Source: Prototheca cutis (Eukaryota > Chlorophyta > Trebouxiophyceae > Chlorellales > Chlorellaceae). From it: a stretch of 64,000 nucleotides of DNA. The DNA lies in NCBI GenBank assembly GCA_002897115.2, contig BCIH01000001.1:1779999-1843998 (forward strand), written 5' to 3'. Below the pieces are notes generated by a model that was not told where the DNA came from, made no database searches, and saw only the letters and a program-made list of their open reading frames with translations. The translations under genes were made by a program, and so were the position numbers. Position 1 is the stretch's first letter. Every line of letters begins with the position of its first letter. This document shows positions 2,760-40,837 of this stretch, one piece after another.

Positions 2760-3557
2760 CATGGGACCACGATGGTAGCACCACCTGAACATGGACAGCA
2801 CTTTTGTGGCCCTTGAGAGTTGGCAGCCCCAGGTCTAGGTCCTGGGTGGCTCACCCGCTTCCACGCGGCAACTCCGCGCCAAGTCAGACCGGCCGAGCGT
2901 GCATCCACATGGACCATGCAGTCATGCGGTGCGACAACGGAGACCCAAACAAACGGTGGCCCGTGCACTGCCCACTGTGGACCTTGAAGCTGGCTCCCAG
3001 ACTGAGCTGCCAACAAGCCATTGACTGCTCATTGCTTCCATTGATTTTGACTAGGCACCACTTAATATGGATATGTAGGGCTTGGTTGGGAGGCCGTCTA
3101 GTGGGATACACCTCCCTGAAAGCGCTTGTTCAGACCTGGTGTGGCCTACGCTCCCAGTCGCCCACTGACACACCTCCGCCGTCACGGCCAAGGCCTTGCG
3201 GCGGCCTGCCGGGAAACCTNAGNAACTGCACATNTACAGCNCCAANTTGTGNANNACATCATATAAAAAGGTCTATCATATTTATTTCTGTAGCTAACAA
3301 GCGCTGCGCGGGCCTGCACGCGCCGTCTAGTGGGCGCGACCTCCTCCACGGCTGCGCCCCCCCACGCGAACTTCCAAGAGTGATTGCCCCCAAGTATGCC
3401 CCGTTGTGATGGAGAGATACTGTTCATGCGCTGTTGTAGGGGTGTCGAATAAGCATTTTGTGGGGAGGGGCAAGGGGGTGCGGCACGGGAAGGCCGGAAG
3501 GGCTGAAACGGGAATTCATCGCGAGGCTGCCATCGCCGAACTCCAGGAGGGACCAGG

Positions 3558-13162: not shown

Positions 13163-16100
13163 TCATTTCCTTGACCCCACCGTGGAATGGGGCGATTGGA
13201 GCTCCTGCACCTGCCAGCTGCCTTGTCCATCCAGCGTGAGAAGTGCATCGTGCACGGATCTCAGCGCCGGCGTGTCTTGTCCCACACTCAGGTAGGCGAC
13301 TCCTGCAGCGGCCAGCGCAGAGTGCAGCGCCACGGCGGCCTCCGGGCTCAGGGCGGCAGTGGGTTCGTCCATGATGGCGAGGTCGGGCGCCGACAACAGC
13401 AGGCGAGCAAAACCCAGACGCTGCTGCTCGCCGGGAGACAGACCGACGGGCGCGGGGCCGTCCAGTCCGCCCGCACGGGCAAGCAGGTGCGCCAGGCCTG
13501 CCGTGCTCAGAGCGGCGGCTGCAGCAGCACCATTTGGCCGCGGGCCGACCGCAGGATAGACAAGGGCATGCCACAGTCGCGACCCCGGTGCGGTCACGGC
13601 ACGTTGCGGCAGCCAGGCCACGCGTGCGCCGGGGTCAAACGCCACAGTGCCCCGGGCTACAGGGGCCAGGTCCGCTAGTGCCACCAGCAGCGTCGATTTG
13701 CCTGCGCCGTTGGGGCCGGCCACGAGTACCCGACATCCGCGTGTAAGGCAGAGGTTCAAGTTCCGCACTGCCCACCGCCCGTCCCCGGTCGGCACACACA
13801 GGTCCTGGATGTCTAGCAGGGTTGGAGGTGATGCAACTGGCCGAGGAACTGAAGGCGCAGTGACTTGGATGGGCTCGGTGCCAAAGCCAGTGCCGGGTAT
13901 CCCGGTCCTCCTTTCCAACCCAAGCACTGCACTGAGCTCGGCCCAACTTGCATCAGTCAGGAGCGTGGCAGGGTAGCACCTCGTCCCTGTGAGGGCGCAT
14001 ATGTGAGGTGAAAGCCGTCATCCGAGGGGAGATTTCGTGTGCTACCCTTGGGTCACATGTGCGCCTGCCGCCCAATGAGAGCGCAATTGCCATACACGTT
14101 CAGCGCAGTAGGATGCCATCCCCCGCAAACCCTCTAGACTTCCCAGCATAACCATACCCCTACCGAGTGTCGGGTGGCAGAGCAAGGGGCAGGCGATGCC
14201 CGGCAGGACGGCATAGCCCAGCAGCTTCCTCGCAGCTTCCACCTCCGTCCACACCCCCCGATGCCTCACCCCGTGGAGCGACCCGCCTGTGGCGGGGTCC
14301 ACGGCATCAGCCCAGCAGCCCCGGGCTCGGAGCATGGCACACACGCCGTGTGACCAGGAGAGCAGTCGGGCCAGTGCCGCGTCCAGCTCGGAGTCCGCAT
14401 GAGCTTGGCTGCCCAGCGGCTGCACTGTGAAACATGCCAGCAGTGGCCGGCGTGTCGGCGCATCCACAAAAACGGCCAGAGCTGATGCATGCAGGTTTGA
14501 ACCGGGGGAAAGCAGGTGCACCGACAGCTCTGGTGTGGAAGGCTCAGGCTCGCCTGGCTGTCTGGTGGTTTGCTCTGCCAGTGGGGCATAGGGCGCTGGG
14601 GGATACAGGGTCTTGGGATGAAGCACGACATCCCTGTCCTCCCCCGTCGAGTTTGGTCTTTCGACGGTTTGACCCCGGCCTTGCATCTGGACGTCAATGC
14701 TGGCACTCGCACCGGTAACGCCAAGCTCCTCCATGAGCTCGCCCACACGGGCCAGCAACCCTGCCATTGTTTATGACGAGCTGACATCGATTGGATCTAT
14801 GTTTTGGCAAACATTTTCAAGAGACGAGAGCCTTGGAGCATCATGTGCCAGTGCCATTCTACCCCACGGTCGGTCAGTGCCTCCCAGGCCCTGCCCACAC
14901 CCAGCCTCAAACAACTTTTGACCTTTCCAAGCCAATCCAGTGGCCCACCCACCCGTCACCTACCTGGAAAGCGTGAATATTGCGCCAGCTTGTCCACGAG
15001 CTCAGTAAAGCTGTAGACAAGTGCCATGACGGAAAACGCGGCATTGGACACGAATTGTGCTGTCGCGCCGCCGCTTGCCGCGGGCCCAGCGCCTGAGAAA
15101 ACCACCACGGCGACGGCGGTGTAGGTCAGCAGCGCACCACCATAGTCAATGCCCTTGACCGCCAGCTGCTGCGCAGCTTCCCGCGGCACCACGGCAGCCT
15201 GGCAGCGCAGCGCCGTCCGTGCCGAGGCCGCCAGTGCGGCCGCTTCAGCCTCGTAACAGGCCTGCCCATGCCCGGGGGTGCCCCGCCCCGCCAGCGCGAC
15301 GTCGGCGGATCGCGCCCGCAGCCGCGCATGCGCCGTGCGCAGCAGGCCTTCTGCGCTCTCTTGAGTGTACACTGCCCGTGCCAGCGGGACTGTCACCGCC
15401 CTGCGGGGATGCAGGTTGAACGAGGCAGATGTTTGAAAGAAATTCCCCCAAATACCCAAAAATCCTCCCTTCTTCCCTCAGATGGTCGTGCCAATAGAGA
15501 AAAAAGAAAAGTGGAATCCACAAGAAAACCCCTTCCGAAACCAGGTACCATTGGATGACCACGGCGCAGATGACGAATCCCACGACTACAAGCAGCCCTC
15601 GCCAGCCCAGGTACCGCGCGGTCTTCGCGGAGAAGAGCGCCATGCGAAAGGGCACGCTGACTGCGACCCTGGCAACGCCCGCGGCGTCATCGGTCAGCGT
15701 CCGTACATCCTGCGCGGTTCGCTGATCTGGGTTGTCTGCCTGCAGCGCCCGGAACCGGCCGTTTGTACAATAGGCAGCCTGCAGGCGGGCCGTGAGCCGG
15801 TGGCGCCAGGCCAGGGCCAGCTGCCGCTCCAACCACGTTCCCAGCGAGGAAAGCGTGGCGCAGGCCGCATACAGTAGCGAGGACCAGAGGGTGACGCGCA
15901 GAAACGCGCTGCGCCGGCCATCCACGAGAATGCTGTAGTACTGGCCCGCCACCGTGCCCACTGCCGAATGAGAAGGCACAGAGAGAGGGATAGTTCTTTT
16001 GCATGGCTGGAAGGAATCAGGGATGGAACAGGCCAGACTGTAGCACGACATGATCAGGCCCTGCCGTCAGTCCCTGCCATCGATCCTAACGCCCACCCTG

Positions 16101-16467
16101 TGCAACGATGAGAGCCTCAGCGATGGACAAGACGCCCAGGAGAAGAACCTTCCAGGGTCTCAAGACCCCAGCCACCAGCAGCAGGCGGCGCCACAGGTGT
16201 AGCCCTTGGGTTGCACAAACGGGGCCGAGCTTGGCTTCTCCTCCATTTTGAAGGACTTTCATGCACATCTCCTGTGTGGGTGCACCGGTGATGTAACCAC
16301 ACCGTCGGTGCTTGTCCACCACAAGGACCCCAACCAGCACCAGATCTGATTCCCCACCCGGACTTTCCCCCCCAGGCACAATTGAGTGCAAATTTCCACA
16401 AGAGGTCCCCCGCGCTGCCCACCTCATTCTTGGGCAGAAGAGGAGACAAGAGTCCATCCGATGCCAT
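13163..16467 (-). CDS. ABCD4-like half ABC transporter with an inserted MMADHC (cblD)-like domain
   Basis: Predicted fusion of two vitamin B12 trafficking proteins. Membrane domain exons span 16467 to 14964: MASDGLLSPLLPKNE start, LRPWKVLLLGVLSIAEALIV, GQYYSILVDGRRSAFLRV, NPDQRTAQDV, FTELVDKLAQYSRF. Exon 14760-14098 begins with the linker helix LLARVGELMEELGVTG expected in ABCD4. It then runs into an MMADHC-like region: SWSHGVCAMLRARGCWADAVDPATGG, LLGYAVLPGIACPLLCHPTLGRGMVMLGSLEG. Exon 13986-13163 is the nucleotide-binding domain: Walker A GPNGAGKST, signature LSPGEQQRLGFARLL, Walker B LAIMDEPTAAL. Both junctions around the insert (14964/14760 and 14098/13986) are GT-AG and phase 1 on both sides, so one polypeptide is predicted. 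The switch His is replaced by Gln (YLSVGQD). ABCD4 exports cobalamin from lysosomes; MMADHC directs cytosolic cobalamin to its enzymes. Upstream exon borders (15540-16467) are approximate. Two separate genes are the alternative. Confidence 0.8.
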
Positions 16468-17476
16468 CACAGAATAGACTCGGCAATGGATGAGGGTTAA
16501 ATCAGAGACAGAAGGTCTCTCGGTGCACCTGAGGCGCGGTGAGCTCTAGCCGTGCGACCCAGCGACCCACATGACAATTGAAAAGCGGGGCAGAGTCGTG
16601 AAGTCTACATGATCACACGGATCCATTTTAAATCATTGATGTGCAAATGCAGCTCTTGAATGGCACAGCATTCTCAGGGACACCTGGATTGGGGGGTGTG
16701 TCGGGCGGGCCCCTCTCATGCGGTGGATCGGATCACACGTCGAGCGTCAGCAGGCTCTGTACAGTACCGGCAGAAAAATGAACCCCTTTTTGAGATTCGT
16801 CAGAAGACTCTCACCTGCACAGCAAGGGCATGTTTTTCAAACAAGATGCCTGTTGGACTGCATTCCCTGGCCGCGTCGCTCAGGTGATTGGGCTGGGTTC
16901 CTTCTTGGCAGCAGGACAGGTCGTGCCCAACCCACGCCCCTATCGCAGGGAGCAGACGCCTGAGGTGGTGTGCCACGGGCTGCTGCGCTGCACCAACGCA
17001 GAGTGCCCCCCCCGAACGGCGAGCATCGTCTCTGGAACAGAGACTTGATGGCGTGTCTGAACACGAGGCACATCGTGCAGAGCCTGCGGAAGACCGGCAG
17101 GCGGCCTCAGCACTTCCAGCGCCCAGCGCCGCAGTGCTGATGAACATCCATCCATCCATCATGGGGGGTTATAGCCTTCCAACTGGGGTCCGGAACCCCC
17201 GGGGCTCCTTCCCTCCCTGGAAAGGAAAAAAGCAGCCCCGGAGGTGGTCCATCATTGAGGTGGTCCACCTTCCTATTGCCCTGCAGAGTGAAAATTTTCG
17301 GCCATCAGTGATGCCCAGCAACCCCCGGAGTGATCTGATGCTGTGCTGGCTGAGCTGGTTGCATTATTTTGCCCTGCATGGTACAACATGGCAGCGGACT
17401 CTGGCGTGGCCTTTCGAATCACTTGTGCAGAACAAGCAATTTCGCGGAGATAGATATAAAGAGATAGGGCCTGAGG
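16468..17476. other. Intergenic, divergent promoter region; nothing recognised
   Basis: Lies between the divergently transcribed ABCD4-like gene and the UBE2J2-type gene. Several short open frames exist on both strands, none with a recognisable motif. Confidence 0.45.
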
Positions 17477-18849
17477 ATGTCGCTGCCAAAGTCGTGCGTC
17501 GTCCGACTGCAGAAGGAGTACAAGTCCTTGACACGGGTACGGCCTTGGGGCCAGGTTGTTCACACCAGATACCCGTGATCGTTCCATGTCTCATATGTCA
17601 TGCACGTTGATGTCTTGTTTTAGGACCCGGTGCCATGCGTCGAGGCGCATCCGTCGCCCAACAACCTGCTGGTGAGGCCTGGAGCATGGGTAGAGGGTTC
17701 TATGCGGGGTCCTGGCATATCCCGCAGACTACACTGCAGGAAGCGATGCGCGTGCCGAGCAACTCTCACTGTGACTGAATTTCAGAAGCCTTTCCCAACG
17801 ACGGCACGTTGCTCCCCTTGCGCAGGAGTGGCATTTTGTGCTGGAAGGTCGCGATGAGTTCAGTGGTGGGGTCTACCATGGCAAGGTGACGTTCCCTGCT
17901 GCCTATCCCTTCAAGCCACCTTCCATCATCATGCTGACTCCAAACGGCAGGTGAGGAGGTGGTTATTGTGTGGCAGGGGCCATGCTTATGCCTATTGGCT
18001 CTTCCATGATTTCCACACACGCCACTGCCCACTGCCATGCACTGCAGGTTTGCCACCAACACGAAGATCTGCATGAGCATGGTGAGGCTGTAGTGGTTGG
18101 AAAGGACAGGCAGATGCGACGGCAACAATGCCGTGCAAGGCTGGGCTTGGAAAAGCTGTTTTGGCATGGCTGAGAGTCGGTGTAAGCTCTTTCTTTCTGC
18201 GGCATGATGATCCTGCGCCGTCCATTTCGAGTCAATCTCACCACCGCCGGCGAATCACAGCATGCCACTGAGGAGGACCCCCCCTTTTGCATACTGCCTG
18301 CAGACGGACTTTCACCCCGAGAGTTGGAACCCCATGTGGTCCGTGGGCACCATCCTGAACGGACTGCTGTCTTTCATGTACGACACCGCCAACAGCACGG
18401 GCGTGGTAACGAGCACGCCGCAAGAAAAAGCGATGTTTGCCGCCCAATCGCTGGCCTTTAATGTGCGCAACCCCATGTTCCGGAGGCTCTTCCCGGACTG
18501 GGTAACGCGGCACGAGGAGGCCTTGCGGCGGGGCCCAGAACCGGCCGTACTGGCCGCAGGGAACGGCGCTGAAATGGGGACTGGCCCTGTGAATGTCGGG
18601 CCGCAGCCGGGGCACGGTGCTCATGGCACGCCGACGCCGCGGCCGGGCACGCAACCGGCGCCCGGTGTGAGTGAAGGGCCCGCTGCCACCGCTAGAGGAC
18701 CACAGGGTGGCACGCAACAACCGGTGCCGGCCCGGAGGCCACGGCCGCTGGCGTTCTATTCAGCGGCGGCGATGGTGGGTGTCATGGGTGTTGCCCTGGC
18801 ATACCTCTGGTGGCAGCAAGCACTGCAGCAACAGTCGGGAAAGCAATGA
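17477..18849 (+). CDS. UBE2J2: Tail-anchored ubiquitin-conjugating enzyme E2, UBE2J2/UBC6 type
   Basis: E2 enzyme of ER-associated degradation; it accepts ubiquitin from E1 on a Cys and passes it to substrates with ER E3 ligases. Exons 17477-17536, 17624-17671, 17826-17950, 18048-18081 and 18304-18849 join in phase to 270 residues. The core reads RLQKEYKSLTR, DPVPCVEAHPSPNNLLEWHFVLEG, GGVYHGKVTFPAAYPFKPPSI, then NTKICMSMTDFHPESWNPMW. Active Cys is about residue 86, in the UBC6-type context that lacks the usual HPN motif. A long Pro/Gly-rich linker leads to one hydrophobic segment near the C-terminus (LAFYSAAAMVGVMGVALAYLWW), the expected tail anchor facing the enzyme to the cytosol. ATG 17477 starts the family-typical helix MSLPKSCVVRLQKEY. 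Confidence 0.93.
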
Positions 18850-21952: not shown

Positions 21953-21995
21953 ATGAATGAATGCTTGATGGATGGTTCTGTTGCTGCTTCACACC

Positions 21996-21997
<2 letters not shown>

Positions 21998-22061
<64 letters not shown>

Positions 22062-22741
22062 NNNNNNNNNNNNNNNNNNNNNNNNNNNNNNNNNNNNNNN
22101 NNNNNNNNNNNNNNNNNNNNNNNNNNNNNNNNNNNNNNNNNNNNNNNNNNNNNNNNNNNNNNNNNNNNNNNNNNNNNNNNNNNNNNNNNNNNNNNNNNNN
22201 NNNNNNNNNNNNNNNNNNNNNNNNNNNNNNNNNNNNNNNNNNNNNNNNNNNNNNNNNNNNNNNNNNNNNNNNNNNNNNNNNNNNNNNNNNNNNNNNNNNN
22301 NNNNNNNNNNNNNNNNNNNNNNNNNNNNNNNNNNNNNNNNNNNNNNNNNNNNNNNNNNNNNNNNNNNNNNNNNNNNNNNNNNNNNNNNNNNNNNNNNNNN
22401 NNNNNNNNNNNNNNNNNNNNNNNNNNNNNNNNNNNNNNNNNNNNNNNNNNNNNNNNNNNNNNNNNNNNNNNNNNNNNNNNNNNNNNNNNNNNNNNNNNNN
22501 NNNNNNNNNNNNNNNNNNNNNNNNNNNNNNNNNNNNNNNNNNNNNNNNNNNNNNNNNNNNNNNNNNNNNNNNNNNNNNNNNNNNNNNNNNNNNNNNNNNN
22601 NNNNNNNNNNNNNNNNNNNNNNNNNNNNNNNNNNNNNNNNNNNNNNNNNNNNNNNNNNNNNNNNNNNNNNNNNNNNNNNNNNNNNNNNNNNNNNNNNNNN
22701 NNNNNNNNNNNNNNNNNNNNNNNCCCCCCCCCCCCCCCCCC
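21998..22741. other. Assembly gap flanked by poly-C
   Basis: C run 21998-22061, unknown bases 22062-22723, C run 22724-22741. The gap removes the 3' part of the prohibitin gene on the minus strand. The flanking C runs probably mark where reads failed. Confidence 0.95.
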
Positions 22742-22819
22742 GGCCCAACCCCCATCCAACCACAATCGCCAAACAAACAAAAAAAGCAAGCCACAATCCA
22801 GCAAACAGCTAGTGCGTAC

Positions 22820-23798
22820 GATGAACTTGGCCTTCTCGGCGTCCTGCTGCGCGACCTGCTTGGCCTCCACGGCAGCAGTGTACTCGCGGGAGAAGGTGAG
22901 GTTGGTGATGGACACGTCGGCCAGCACGATGTTGAAGTAGCGGGCACGTTCGGTCAGCAGGTCGCGGATGTTGGCGCTGACCACCTCACGCATGGTCAGC
23001 AGCTGCGAGGCGTTGTACTGCGCGATCACCGACTTGAGCGTCTCCTGGATGATGCTGGGCAGCACGCGCTCGGCATAGTCGGTGCCAAGCGTCCGGTAAA
23101 TCTCGGGCAGCTTTGCGATGCTCGGACGGGTCAGCACACGCAGGCCAATGTTGACCTGCACGTTGTGAGGGTTTTTGTTAGGAAGGGGGGTCTATGAATA
23201 CATGCTGCTCAATGTGCATGCATGTGCATGTGGGCATCAGAGCGGCCGTCCCACCCCTCTTGTGTGGACCGATCCGTACACCCACATGCTACTCGGCAGC
23301 AGCAGCAGCCACACACATGCAAGCTGGTGTCCAGGACCACATGGGTACCTTCTACAGCATAATCTCGCAACCCCACCCCGCACTACCACCCACCATCTGC
23401 AGGTCCCTAGAGCCGGAGGTGGAGGTGATGACGTTGGGCCTGGCGCGGACGTCGAAGATGATGGGCCGCTCGAACCAGGGGACAATGAAGTGCGTACCCT
23501 CAGCATACACCTTGTCCTTAATACCGCCAATGCGGTCGAACACGATGGCCCTGCGGGGGTGGGTCATGGAAGTCTCGGGACACTGAGCACGCCGGGACCC
23601 GAAGGCCATGCATCCCGCTCGCGATACAGATCCCGGCGCGGGCCAAAGACCACAAGGTATGGCTCACCTGTGACCACCCTCCACGTTGAATATGCTCTGC
23701 AGACCGGCGTAGGTCACAGCGCCACCCACGGCCAGGAGCTGGAGCAGGCGGGCAGGGCCCGGCCCGCTGGGCACCTTGATGTTGCGCACGTTCTCCAT
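22820..23798 (-). CDS. PHB2: Prohibitin-2-type protein, C-terminal part lost in gap
   Basis: Subunit of the mitochondrial inner-membrane prohibitin ring, which scaffolds the membrane and controls m-AAA protease. Exons 23798-23668, 23550-23394 and 23155-22820 join in phase to 208 codons. The N-terminus has a short basic stretch and hydrophobic segment ([16 protein letters not shown]), the usual membrane anchor. It is followed by [76 protein letters not shown] and [24 protein letters not shown]. These match the type II (PHB2) branch rather than PHB1, notably [21 protein letters not shown] donor at 22819 shows that further exons follow. About 80 C-terminal residues (coiled coil) should lie in or beyond the gap. 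Confidence 0.92.
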
Positions 23799-39013: not shown

Positions 39014-40837
39014 CTATCGGACGGGGACGATGTCGTCGATCTTGAGGATCATGCGCGTGCACTCGGCGGCGAGGGACAGGGCAGAGGAAGACACAAGCAG
39101 GGGCTGGACGACCTTCTCTTCCAGCATGTCTGTGACGGTTCCCTTGCGGACGTTGATGCCGGCGTGGGCATTGCCCGCGGCGTGGAGCCTGCGGAGCTCG
39201 GTCACGACTTCGATGGGGTGGAGGCCCGCGTTTTCGGCGAGCGTGGCGGGCACGATTTCCAGCGCCTCGGCGAATGCGCGGACGCAGACGCCCTCCATGC
39301 CCGGCCGCGTCTGGGCCCACTGCCCGAGCCGCACGCTGAGCTCCGTCTCGGGCGCGCCGCCGCCGGCGATGAGGAAGCGCTTCTGCACCAGGCAGCGCAC
39401 TACGCACAGCGCGTCGTGCAGACTGCGCTCGGCCTCCTCCAGCATCAGGGCGTTGGACGCGCGGAGGAGCACAGTGGCAGTCGCCCCCGGGTTGGCGACC
39501 CCCGTGACTTTGACTACTCGGCCCGAGCCGACCGAGACCTCCTCCACCAGCTCGGCATGGCCGAGCTTGTCGGGGCGGAGCCCATCTGGGTGCGCGATCG
39601 GCGTGAGGCCCAGGGTCTTGGAAATAAACTCGATGTCCTCGCGCTCAATGTCCTTGACCACCATGATCTTGGCCTTGGCCAAGTAGTGCAGGGACAGGTC
39701 GGTGACCGCGTCGCGGAGAATGGATTTCTGAATGAGCAGGACGTTGGCCCCCGACGCCCGGATCTTCTTCACCAGCTGCAGGATGTAGTTGCGCTCCTCC
39801 TTCAGGATACGGTCCATCTGCGCGTAATCCGAGATCACGACGCTGTTCTCCAGGTCGGATTTTGGTGGGGACACCTGGAATTGGACCAGCGCGATTTTCG
39901 CGCCTTGGACGCGAGTCGGCCCGCCTGCGGCCTTGGCGGCGCGCTGGTCGAGCACCAGCCCGTCGACGGCCTCCGAGTCGTCGATGGTGCCGCCCACCTT
40001 GGACACGATGCGCACGTCACGCAGGTCGGTGGCTTCGGGGCGCGCCGGGTCGGTGATCTTCAGGATGCAGTCCGCCGCCATGGGCGACAGCAGGCGTGAG
40101 TACTGGTGCACCACCTTGGAGGACAGCGACGTGCTCGCCGCGCGGATGAGGGCCTCGCGGTCCCCCGCGGCCACGGGCACCGCTACGGCCTCCAAAAACT
40201 CCAGCGCCTTGGCGGCCGCGGCATTGAAAGCGTCGGACACGGTTGTCGGGTGGATGCCCCGCTCCAGCAGCTCCGACGCCTTTTTCAACAGCGAGCCGCA
40301 GAGCACGGTGACGGAGGTCGTGCCGTCGCCGGCAACGGCATCCTGTGATTTGGCCAGCTCGACCAGCATCTTGGCTGCAGGCTGCTCCACCGTCATCTTG
40401 TTCAGAATGGTCGCGCCGTCGTTGGTGATGATCACGTGCCCGTCCGCTTGCGCCACCTGGTGGGCGGTGTTGGTCAGTGTGTGGGGGGGAGTGGCTGCGC
40501 TGCCGACAATACCAGCAGCCCAGGGGAGCGCCCCACATCCAGATGCGAGCCTGCCCTAGCCGCACAATCCCCAACCCGCGTACCATCTTGTCTGCGCCGC
40601 GGGGACCCAGGCTGGTGCGGATGGCGTCCGCCACCGCCTTGGCGGCCTCCATATTCATCAGACGCACGTCCTTCTTGTTGGCGTTCTCCCTGCGGAATCA
40701 TAGCGCCAGACCAGACCATCGTGATGCGGGCGAAGCGCACAAATTCGCTGAATCAGCCAATCTCTTGATCCCATGCCCATGTAGTACCTGAGAAATTCGC
40801 CCTTGGGCGCTGCGGGCGCGGCGGTCACACCCGCCAT
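39014..40837 (-). CDS. CCT4: T-complex chaperonin CCT subunit delta
   Basis: Second CCT/TRiC subunit in the window. Exons 40837-40788, 40689-40584 and 40456-39014 join in phase to 532 residues, the family length. Diagnostic sequence: [20 protein letters not shown] then [27 protein letters not shown] motif [127 protein letters not shown] and the C-terminal [13 protein letters not shown]. These identify the delta subunit. ATG 40837 ([15 protein letters not shown]) is preferred; an in-frame ATG at 40861 would add eight residues. Most of the protein is in one large exon. Confidence 0.97.

Follow-up and report, generated by a model that had tools for sequence, protein, structure and literature searches.

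The window is a stretch of 64,000 nucleotides from Prototheca cutis (contig BCIH01000001.1, positions 1,779,999 to 1,843,998), and positions given below are counted from its first letter. On its minus strand, positions 16467-13163 form one six-exon gene that runs from ATG to stop, and the spliced open frame gives a product of 829 residues. This DNA almost certainly encodes a single gene in which an ABCD4-type half-transporter carries an insert derived from MMADHC, an arrangement that other core chlorophytes share. ABCD4 (cblJ) is the lysosomal cobalamin exporter. As predicted from the sequence, the insert follows the final membrane helix and precedes the ATPase domain. The exons span 16467-16423, 16271-16097, 15960-15549, 15400-14964, 14760-14164 and 13986-13163. 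All five introns are of the GT...AG type, with lengths of 136-203 nt and phases 0, 1, 2, 1 and 1. Exon 1 holds the start codon and the N-terminus MASDGLLSPLLPKNE in an open frame that reaches a GT donor in phase 0; a PLLP motif near this N-terminus is also found in P0001, a relative from Auxenochlorella protothecoides. The first membrane helix lies in exon 2, where the alignment with ABCD4 starts (query residue 58). The membrane domain continues in exon 3, which contains the motif ADNPDQR and the genome match to PF06472 (C1:1795552-1795962), and its remainder is in exon 4. The ABCD4 linker helix (LLARVGELMEEL) is encoded in exon 5, in one open frame with the greater part of the MMADHC-related domain (residues 431-555, 14164-14539). 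Exon 6, also one open frame, encodes the last strand of this domain (TRCYPATLLTDASWAEL; residues 556-578, 13919-13986), the ABC ATPase or nucleotide-binding domain (NBD; residues 611-815, 13208-13822) and the stop codon. The coordinates of the MMADHC-related domain were taken by hand from the exon table, its exon 6 part being aligned with P0001 and with the separate MMADHC exon of the genome; the limits of the NBD were set manually around its PF00005 match and motifs.

An original prediction had proposed a single-gene fusion of ABCD4 and MMADHC at this locus, and both the open frames and domains of the window and the relatives described below agree with it. The start at 16467, the phase 1 end of the membrane-domain exon at 14964, the next exon beginning at 14760 with LLARVGELMEELG and containing an MMADHC-like region (CAMLRARGCWADAVDPATGG), and the NBD exon at 13986-13163 were all recovered in the single open frame across the five GT-AG introns. 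The end of exon 5 had been misplaced. The donor first chosen, at 14098, gave a model of 851 residues with 22 extra residues that lack a counterpart in P0001, and we rejected it because P0001 runs on across the 14164/13986 junction. The corrected donor is at 14164 (CTCG/GTAGGGGT), also in phase 1. The window then reads HPTLG-TRCYPATLLTDASWAEL where P0001 has HPRLG-SKVFPATLLTDAPWAEL, the continuous P0001 sequence at this place being HPRLGSKVFPATLLTDAPWAEL. Since exon 5 ends at 14164, the peptide GRGMVMLGSLEG, earlier quoted as MMADHC-like protein, is intron sequence, and the end of the MMADHC region falls in the exon of the ATPase domain. As the linker helix shares exon 5 with the bulk of the MMADHC region, and the NBD shares exon 6 with its last strand, the fusion can be read without trusting the splice sites at the joins.

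The transporter half has the order expected of a half-transporter, PF06472 (ABC_membrane_2; residues 57-247, 102.7 bits) followed by one ABC ATPase (PF00005, 68.9 bits). We compared it with solved structures using the first, uncorrected model of 851 residues. In that numbering, ABCD4 (PDB 24ve) aligns at residues 58-369 with 103.7 bits and at residues 629-840 with 79.6 bits. ABCD4 leads over the membrane part, where the two halves of the ABCD1-type entry 9wfg score 16.3 and 38.5 bits; the linker helix aligns with ABCD4 as far as ABCD4 residue 351. Summed over the protein, ABCD4 reaches 185.5 bits and the Rv1819c transporter (PDB 6tqe) 76.7 bits. The genome searched (19.9 Mb, 23 contigs) has further PF06472 matches on C6, C11 and C4. 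The match on C11 fits ABCD1 better, and the best solved match of the one on C4 (L014) is the Rv1819c transporter, which leaves the window gene as the strongest ABCD4 candidate that we have seen in this genome, judged by sequence. The gene on C6 may be a full transporter, as two PF06472 matches fall within one frame of 1268 residues.

The insert matched the MMADHC family in profile searches. The corrected domain alone scored 30.2 bits with PF10229 (MMADHC), above the curated Pfam cut-off of 27 bits; the frame of exon 5 read beyond its donor scored 20 bits. All seven members of the fused-domain alignment A7 matched PF10229 at E <= 0.1. A profile built from eight fused domains gave 70.7 bits on the separate MMADHC exon of the genome on C10, and the best of 1000 shuffled versions of this exon gave 7.9 bits. 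The likeness of the predicted fused domains to MMADHC is therefore more than chance. The domain conforms to the nitroreductase-like fold of CblD. In a full-length structural model of the relative P0003, the MMADHC part (residues 501-680) has 57-87 pLDDT in blocks of ten residues and the membrane part is low; because the confidence of the model is low (mean pLDDT 59.5, pTM 0.33), the placement of the domain cannot be read from it. The best 50 of 1314 Foldseek matches to this model were all ABC transporters, with ABCD4 at rank 4, and only ABC proteins were found among the best 60 of 223 phmmer matches of P0003 in the PDB.

We then consider the relatives, found in searches that scored no more than the 8000 candidates with the most words in common with the query. 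Residues 350-640 of the uncorrected model retrieved one protein at E <= 10, P0001. The window and P0001 used together retrieved 29 proteins at E <= 1e-10, of which P0001, P0002 and P0003 are annotated with all three domains and 26 with neither PF06472 nor PF10229. Residues 60-690 of P0003 retrieved 11 proteins at E <= 1e-5. Seven of them carry PF06472, PF10229 and the ATPase domain in precomputed Pfam annotations. Our own scans agreed, with PF10229 scores of 29.6-46.9 bits: P0001 from Auxenochlorella (29.6), P0002 (46.7), P0003 from Micractinium tetrahymenae (44.9), P0030 from M. conductrix (46.9), P0031 from Chlorella vulgaris (42.8), P0033, a EukProt entry (30.3), and P0036 from Pedinophyceae sp. 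YPF-701 (45.3). Auxenochlorella and Micractinium belong to the Chlorellales and, like the pedinophyte, are placed by taxonomy among the core chlorophytes. Under this word limit, no ABCD4-type protein that clearly lacks the insert was among the 11 relatives retrieved. Identity between the window and P0001 is 65% in the membrane domain, 55% in the MMADHC-related domain, 62% in the NBD and 30% in the linker; with P0036 the corresponding values are 33%, 40%, 44% and 25%.

Some of the results count against a fused gene of this kind. The gene model is a prediction from DNA. Within the whole protein of 829 residues PF10229 scores 25.6 bits, slightly below the Pfam cut-off, and the summed PDB score is topped by the plant-type ABCD1 entry 9wfg with 186.5 bits, which has more aligned stretches than ABCD4. 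Four of the 11 relatives lack PF10229. In P0032, one of two Chlorella vulgaris models, the domain is shortened by 59 residues at its end and the MMADHC score is 18.8 bits; P0034 and P0035 (which end mid-domain) and the interrupted P0037 have no MMADHC match at E <= 0.01. Hence, the insert of P0034 and P0035 rests on alignment. Together with the linker between membrane and MMADHC domains, which is poorly conserved (13-30% across six relatives), the DNA-only gene model and the shortened P0032 would suit an artefact in which two adjacent genes, or an intron, were read as a single protein. We consider this highly implausible: both joins fall inside single exons, the domain order is identical in predicted proteins from several sources, and P0034, by alignment, has the last membrane helix, the linker and the beginning of the MMADHC region in a single open frame. 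As to the variant models, the 59 residues by which P0031 and P0032 differ over the end of the fused domain may reflect alternative splicing or a difference of annotation. P0002 and P0037 are identical over blocks of 37 and 80 residues, and P0037 diverges at the block ends, a pattern that fits a spliced and an unspliced copy, with P0002 possibly representing the transcript.

The genome encodes other B12-related genes, namely METH, METE, methylmalonyl-CoA mutase and CblB. We considered and rejected the absence of a separate MMADHC gene, since a canonical MMADHC exon lies at C10:103419-103673; it reads GCCK, with both cysteines, as in the human protein. In the genome search for MMADHC this exon (3.2e-12) and the window (9.2e-11) stood apart from the next matches, which were at chance level (0.147 and 0.279). 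The fusion does not, as a consequence, replace the stand-alone protein. Searches for the LMBR1 family gave eight matches in three regions (C11, C1 and C2), which may be LMBD1, the partner of ABCD4, or other LMBR1 proteins. Family searches for light-harvesting proteins (PF00504) gave no match and no candidate in the genome; the same search was positive in one of 14 control genomes. As the relatives of the gene come from green algae, this would suit a colourless trebouxiophyte such as Prototheca.

The residues on which function would depend are partly altered. The ATPase has its Walker A (GPNGAGKS), signature (LSPGEQQR) and Walker B (IMDEPT) motifs, the last with its glutamate, and the switch histidine of the H-loop (residue 792) is replaced by glutamine (SVGQ). 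Glutamine occupies this position in seven of the eight NBD-bearing genes (the window, P0001, P0002, P0003, P0030, P0031 and P0033), and histidine only in the pedinophyte P0036; P0032, which also has glutamine and equals P0031 outside the 59 residues, was counted together with P0031. Normal ATP turnover is thus not assured. One may then ask if the insert is a regulatory or relict domain that senses B12 or stabilises the transporter without any hand-over, the transporter being slow or having another substrate. The H-loop glutamine and the skipping of part of the domain in one Chlorella model fit such a role. We find it distinctly improbable, as over a long divergence the MMADHC domain of the window and P0036 is 40% identical, near the values of the membrane domain and the NBD.

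The cysteine pair is also changed. In human MMADHC, according to PMC12272874, the Co-S bond is made by Cys-261, and Cys-262 breaks this bond when methionine synthase is loaded; PDB 6x8z is, by its entry title, C262S MMADHC with thiolato-cobalamin. The equivalent of Cys-261 is missing in all eight complete fused domains, replaced by A, S, I, V or L, and the Cys-262 position is cysteine in all eight. In the window this is Cys547 (codon 14189-14191), preceded by alanine, and the placement agrees with the HMMER alignment to solved MMADHC. The domain is for this reason not filed as a working CblD, and a domain predicted to lack the cysteine that ligates cobalt is hard to reconcile with a simple 'CblD on a transporter'. 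Because only the Cys-262 position is kept, the domain would probably hold cobalamin weakly or by a single thiol and would probably be incapable of two-cysteine release onto methionine synthase.

These observations also bear on a docking scaffold, in which the fused domain binds no cobalt, retains the surface by which MMADHC binds proteins, and recruits MMACHC to the transporter so that MMACHC takes the cobalamin. Loss of the Cys-261 equivalent in eight of eight domains is what such a role would allow. PMC11311337 describes MMADHC as having no known enzyme activity and a nitroreductase fold used for protein binding, and PDB 9mrs combines human MMACHC, MMADHC and B12, as stated in its title. We regard the scaffold as possible but doubtful, since constant cysteine at the Cys-262 position beside a variable neighbour is odd for a pure scaffold. 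Family searches for its partner MMACHC gave no match in the genome, nor in any of 14 control genomes, and are uninformative.

The fused domain as a receiver, or hand-over station, for exported cobalamin is a reading to which we would give even chances. The architecture of ABC transporters places the insert on the ATPase, and hence cytosolic, side. The transporter would export cobalamin from a vacuole or lysosome-like compartment. At the exit the tethered domain would receive the cobalamin, or a protein carrying it, and pass it to MMACHC or to stand-alone MMADHC; the latter, with both cysteines, would load the enzymes, including by two-cysteine release onto methionine synthase. Export and hand-over of B12 would in this way be coupled. 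A more specific version, which we think rather unlikely in full, has one core-chlorophyte polypeptide combine lysosomal or vacuolar export with the first cytosolic capture in a split two-cysteine relay. The CblD-like domain would take cobalamin from the translocation path by its sole thiol at the Cys-262 position, and free CblD or CblC would pull it off by thiol exchange, such that no free cytosolic cobalamin is needed.

Elsewhere in the window, 17090-17420 (L001, about 2850-3250) is a dispersed repeat, roughly 300 bp long and with a tail of the ATGG type. It has at least 40 matches (40 of 326 candidates were scored), of which one is itself and the others are 85-92% identical; inspection by eye places another copy next to the C10 MMADHC gene. 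Also judged by eye, neighbouring frames resemble prohibitin (21992-23191, minus), a CCT chaperonin subunit (39017-40555, minus) and a UBE2J-like ubiquitin-conjugating enzyme (18211-18849, plus).

The architecture is on record in public databases, where some members already bear the name ABCD4 and seven are annotated with PF10229. We found no paper describing an ABCD4-MMADHC fusion among open-licence PMC articles, preprints excluded, and the parts consulted of PMC11439496, which surveyed CblD and CblJ across plants and algae in 2024, do not mention it. What is new is the arrangement, a conserved one, in which two known families are joined and an active site is altered. As evolutionary evidence, a naturally fused ABCD4-CblD shows exporter and chaperone acting on the same hand-over; it also offers a single protein for structural study of this step and allows the roles of Cys-261 and Cys-262 to be told apart. 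Among known systems, the Rv1819c transporter is not known to have an MMADHC part. Its structure (PDB 6tqe) is of the same kind of transporter as the window gene. ABCD4 (PDB 6jbj, 24ve) shares with the window gene the half-transporter order, the NPDQR motif and the linker helix. It differs between linker helix and NBD, where the window gene has about 240 residues with the MMADHC-related domain whereas the aligned stretches of 24ve end at residue 351 and restart at 383, and in the H-loop, which has histidine in ABCD4 and glutamine in the window. Compared with MMADHC (cblD; PDB 5cv0, 6x8z, 9mrs, 5a4r), the window domain is internal to a transporter and retains Cys-262 without the Co-S ligand Cys-261, whereas the C10 MMADHC of the same genome has both.
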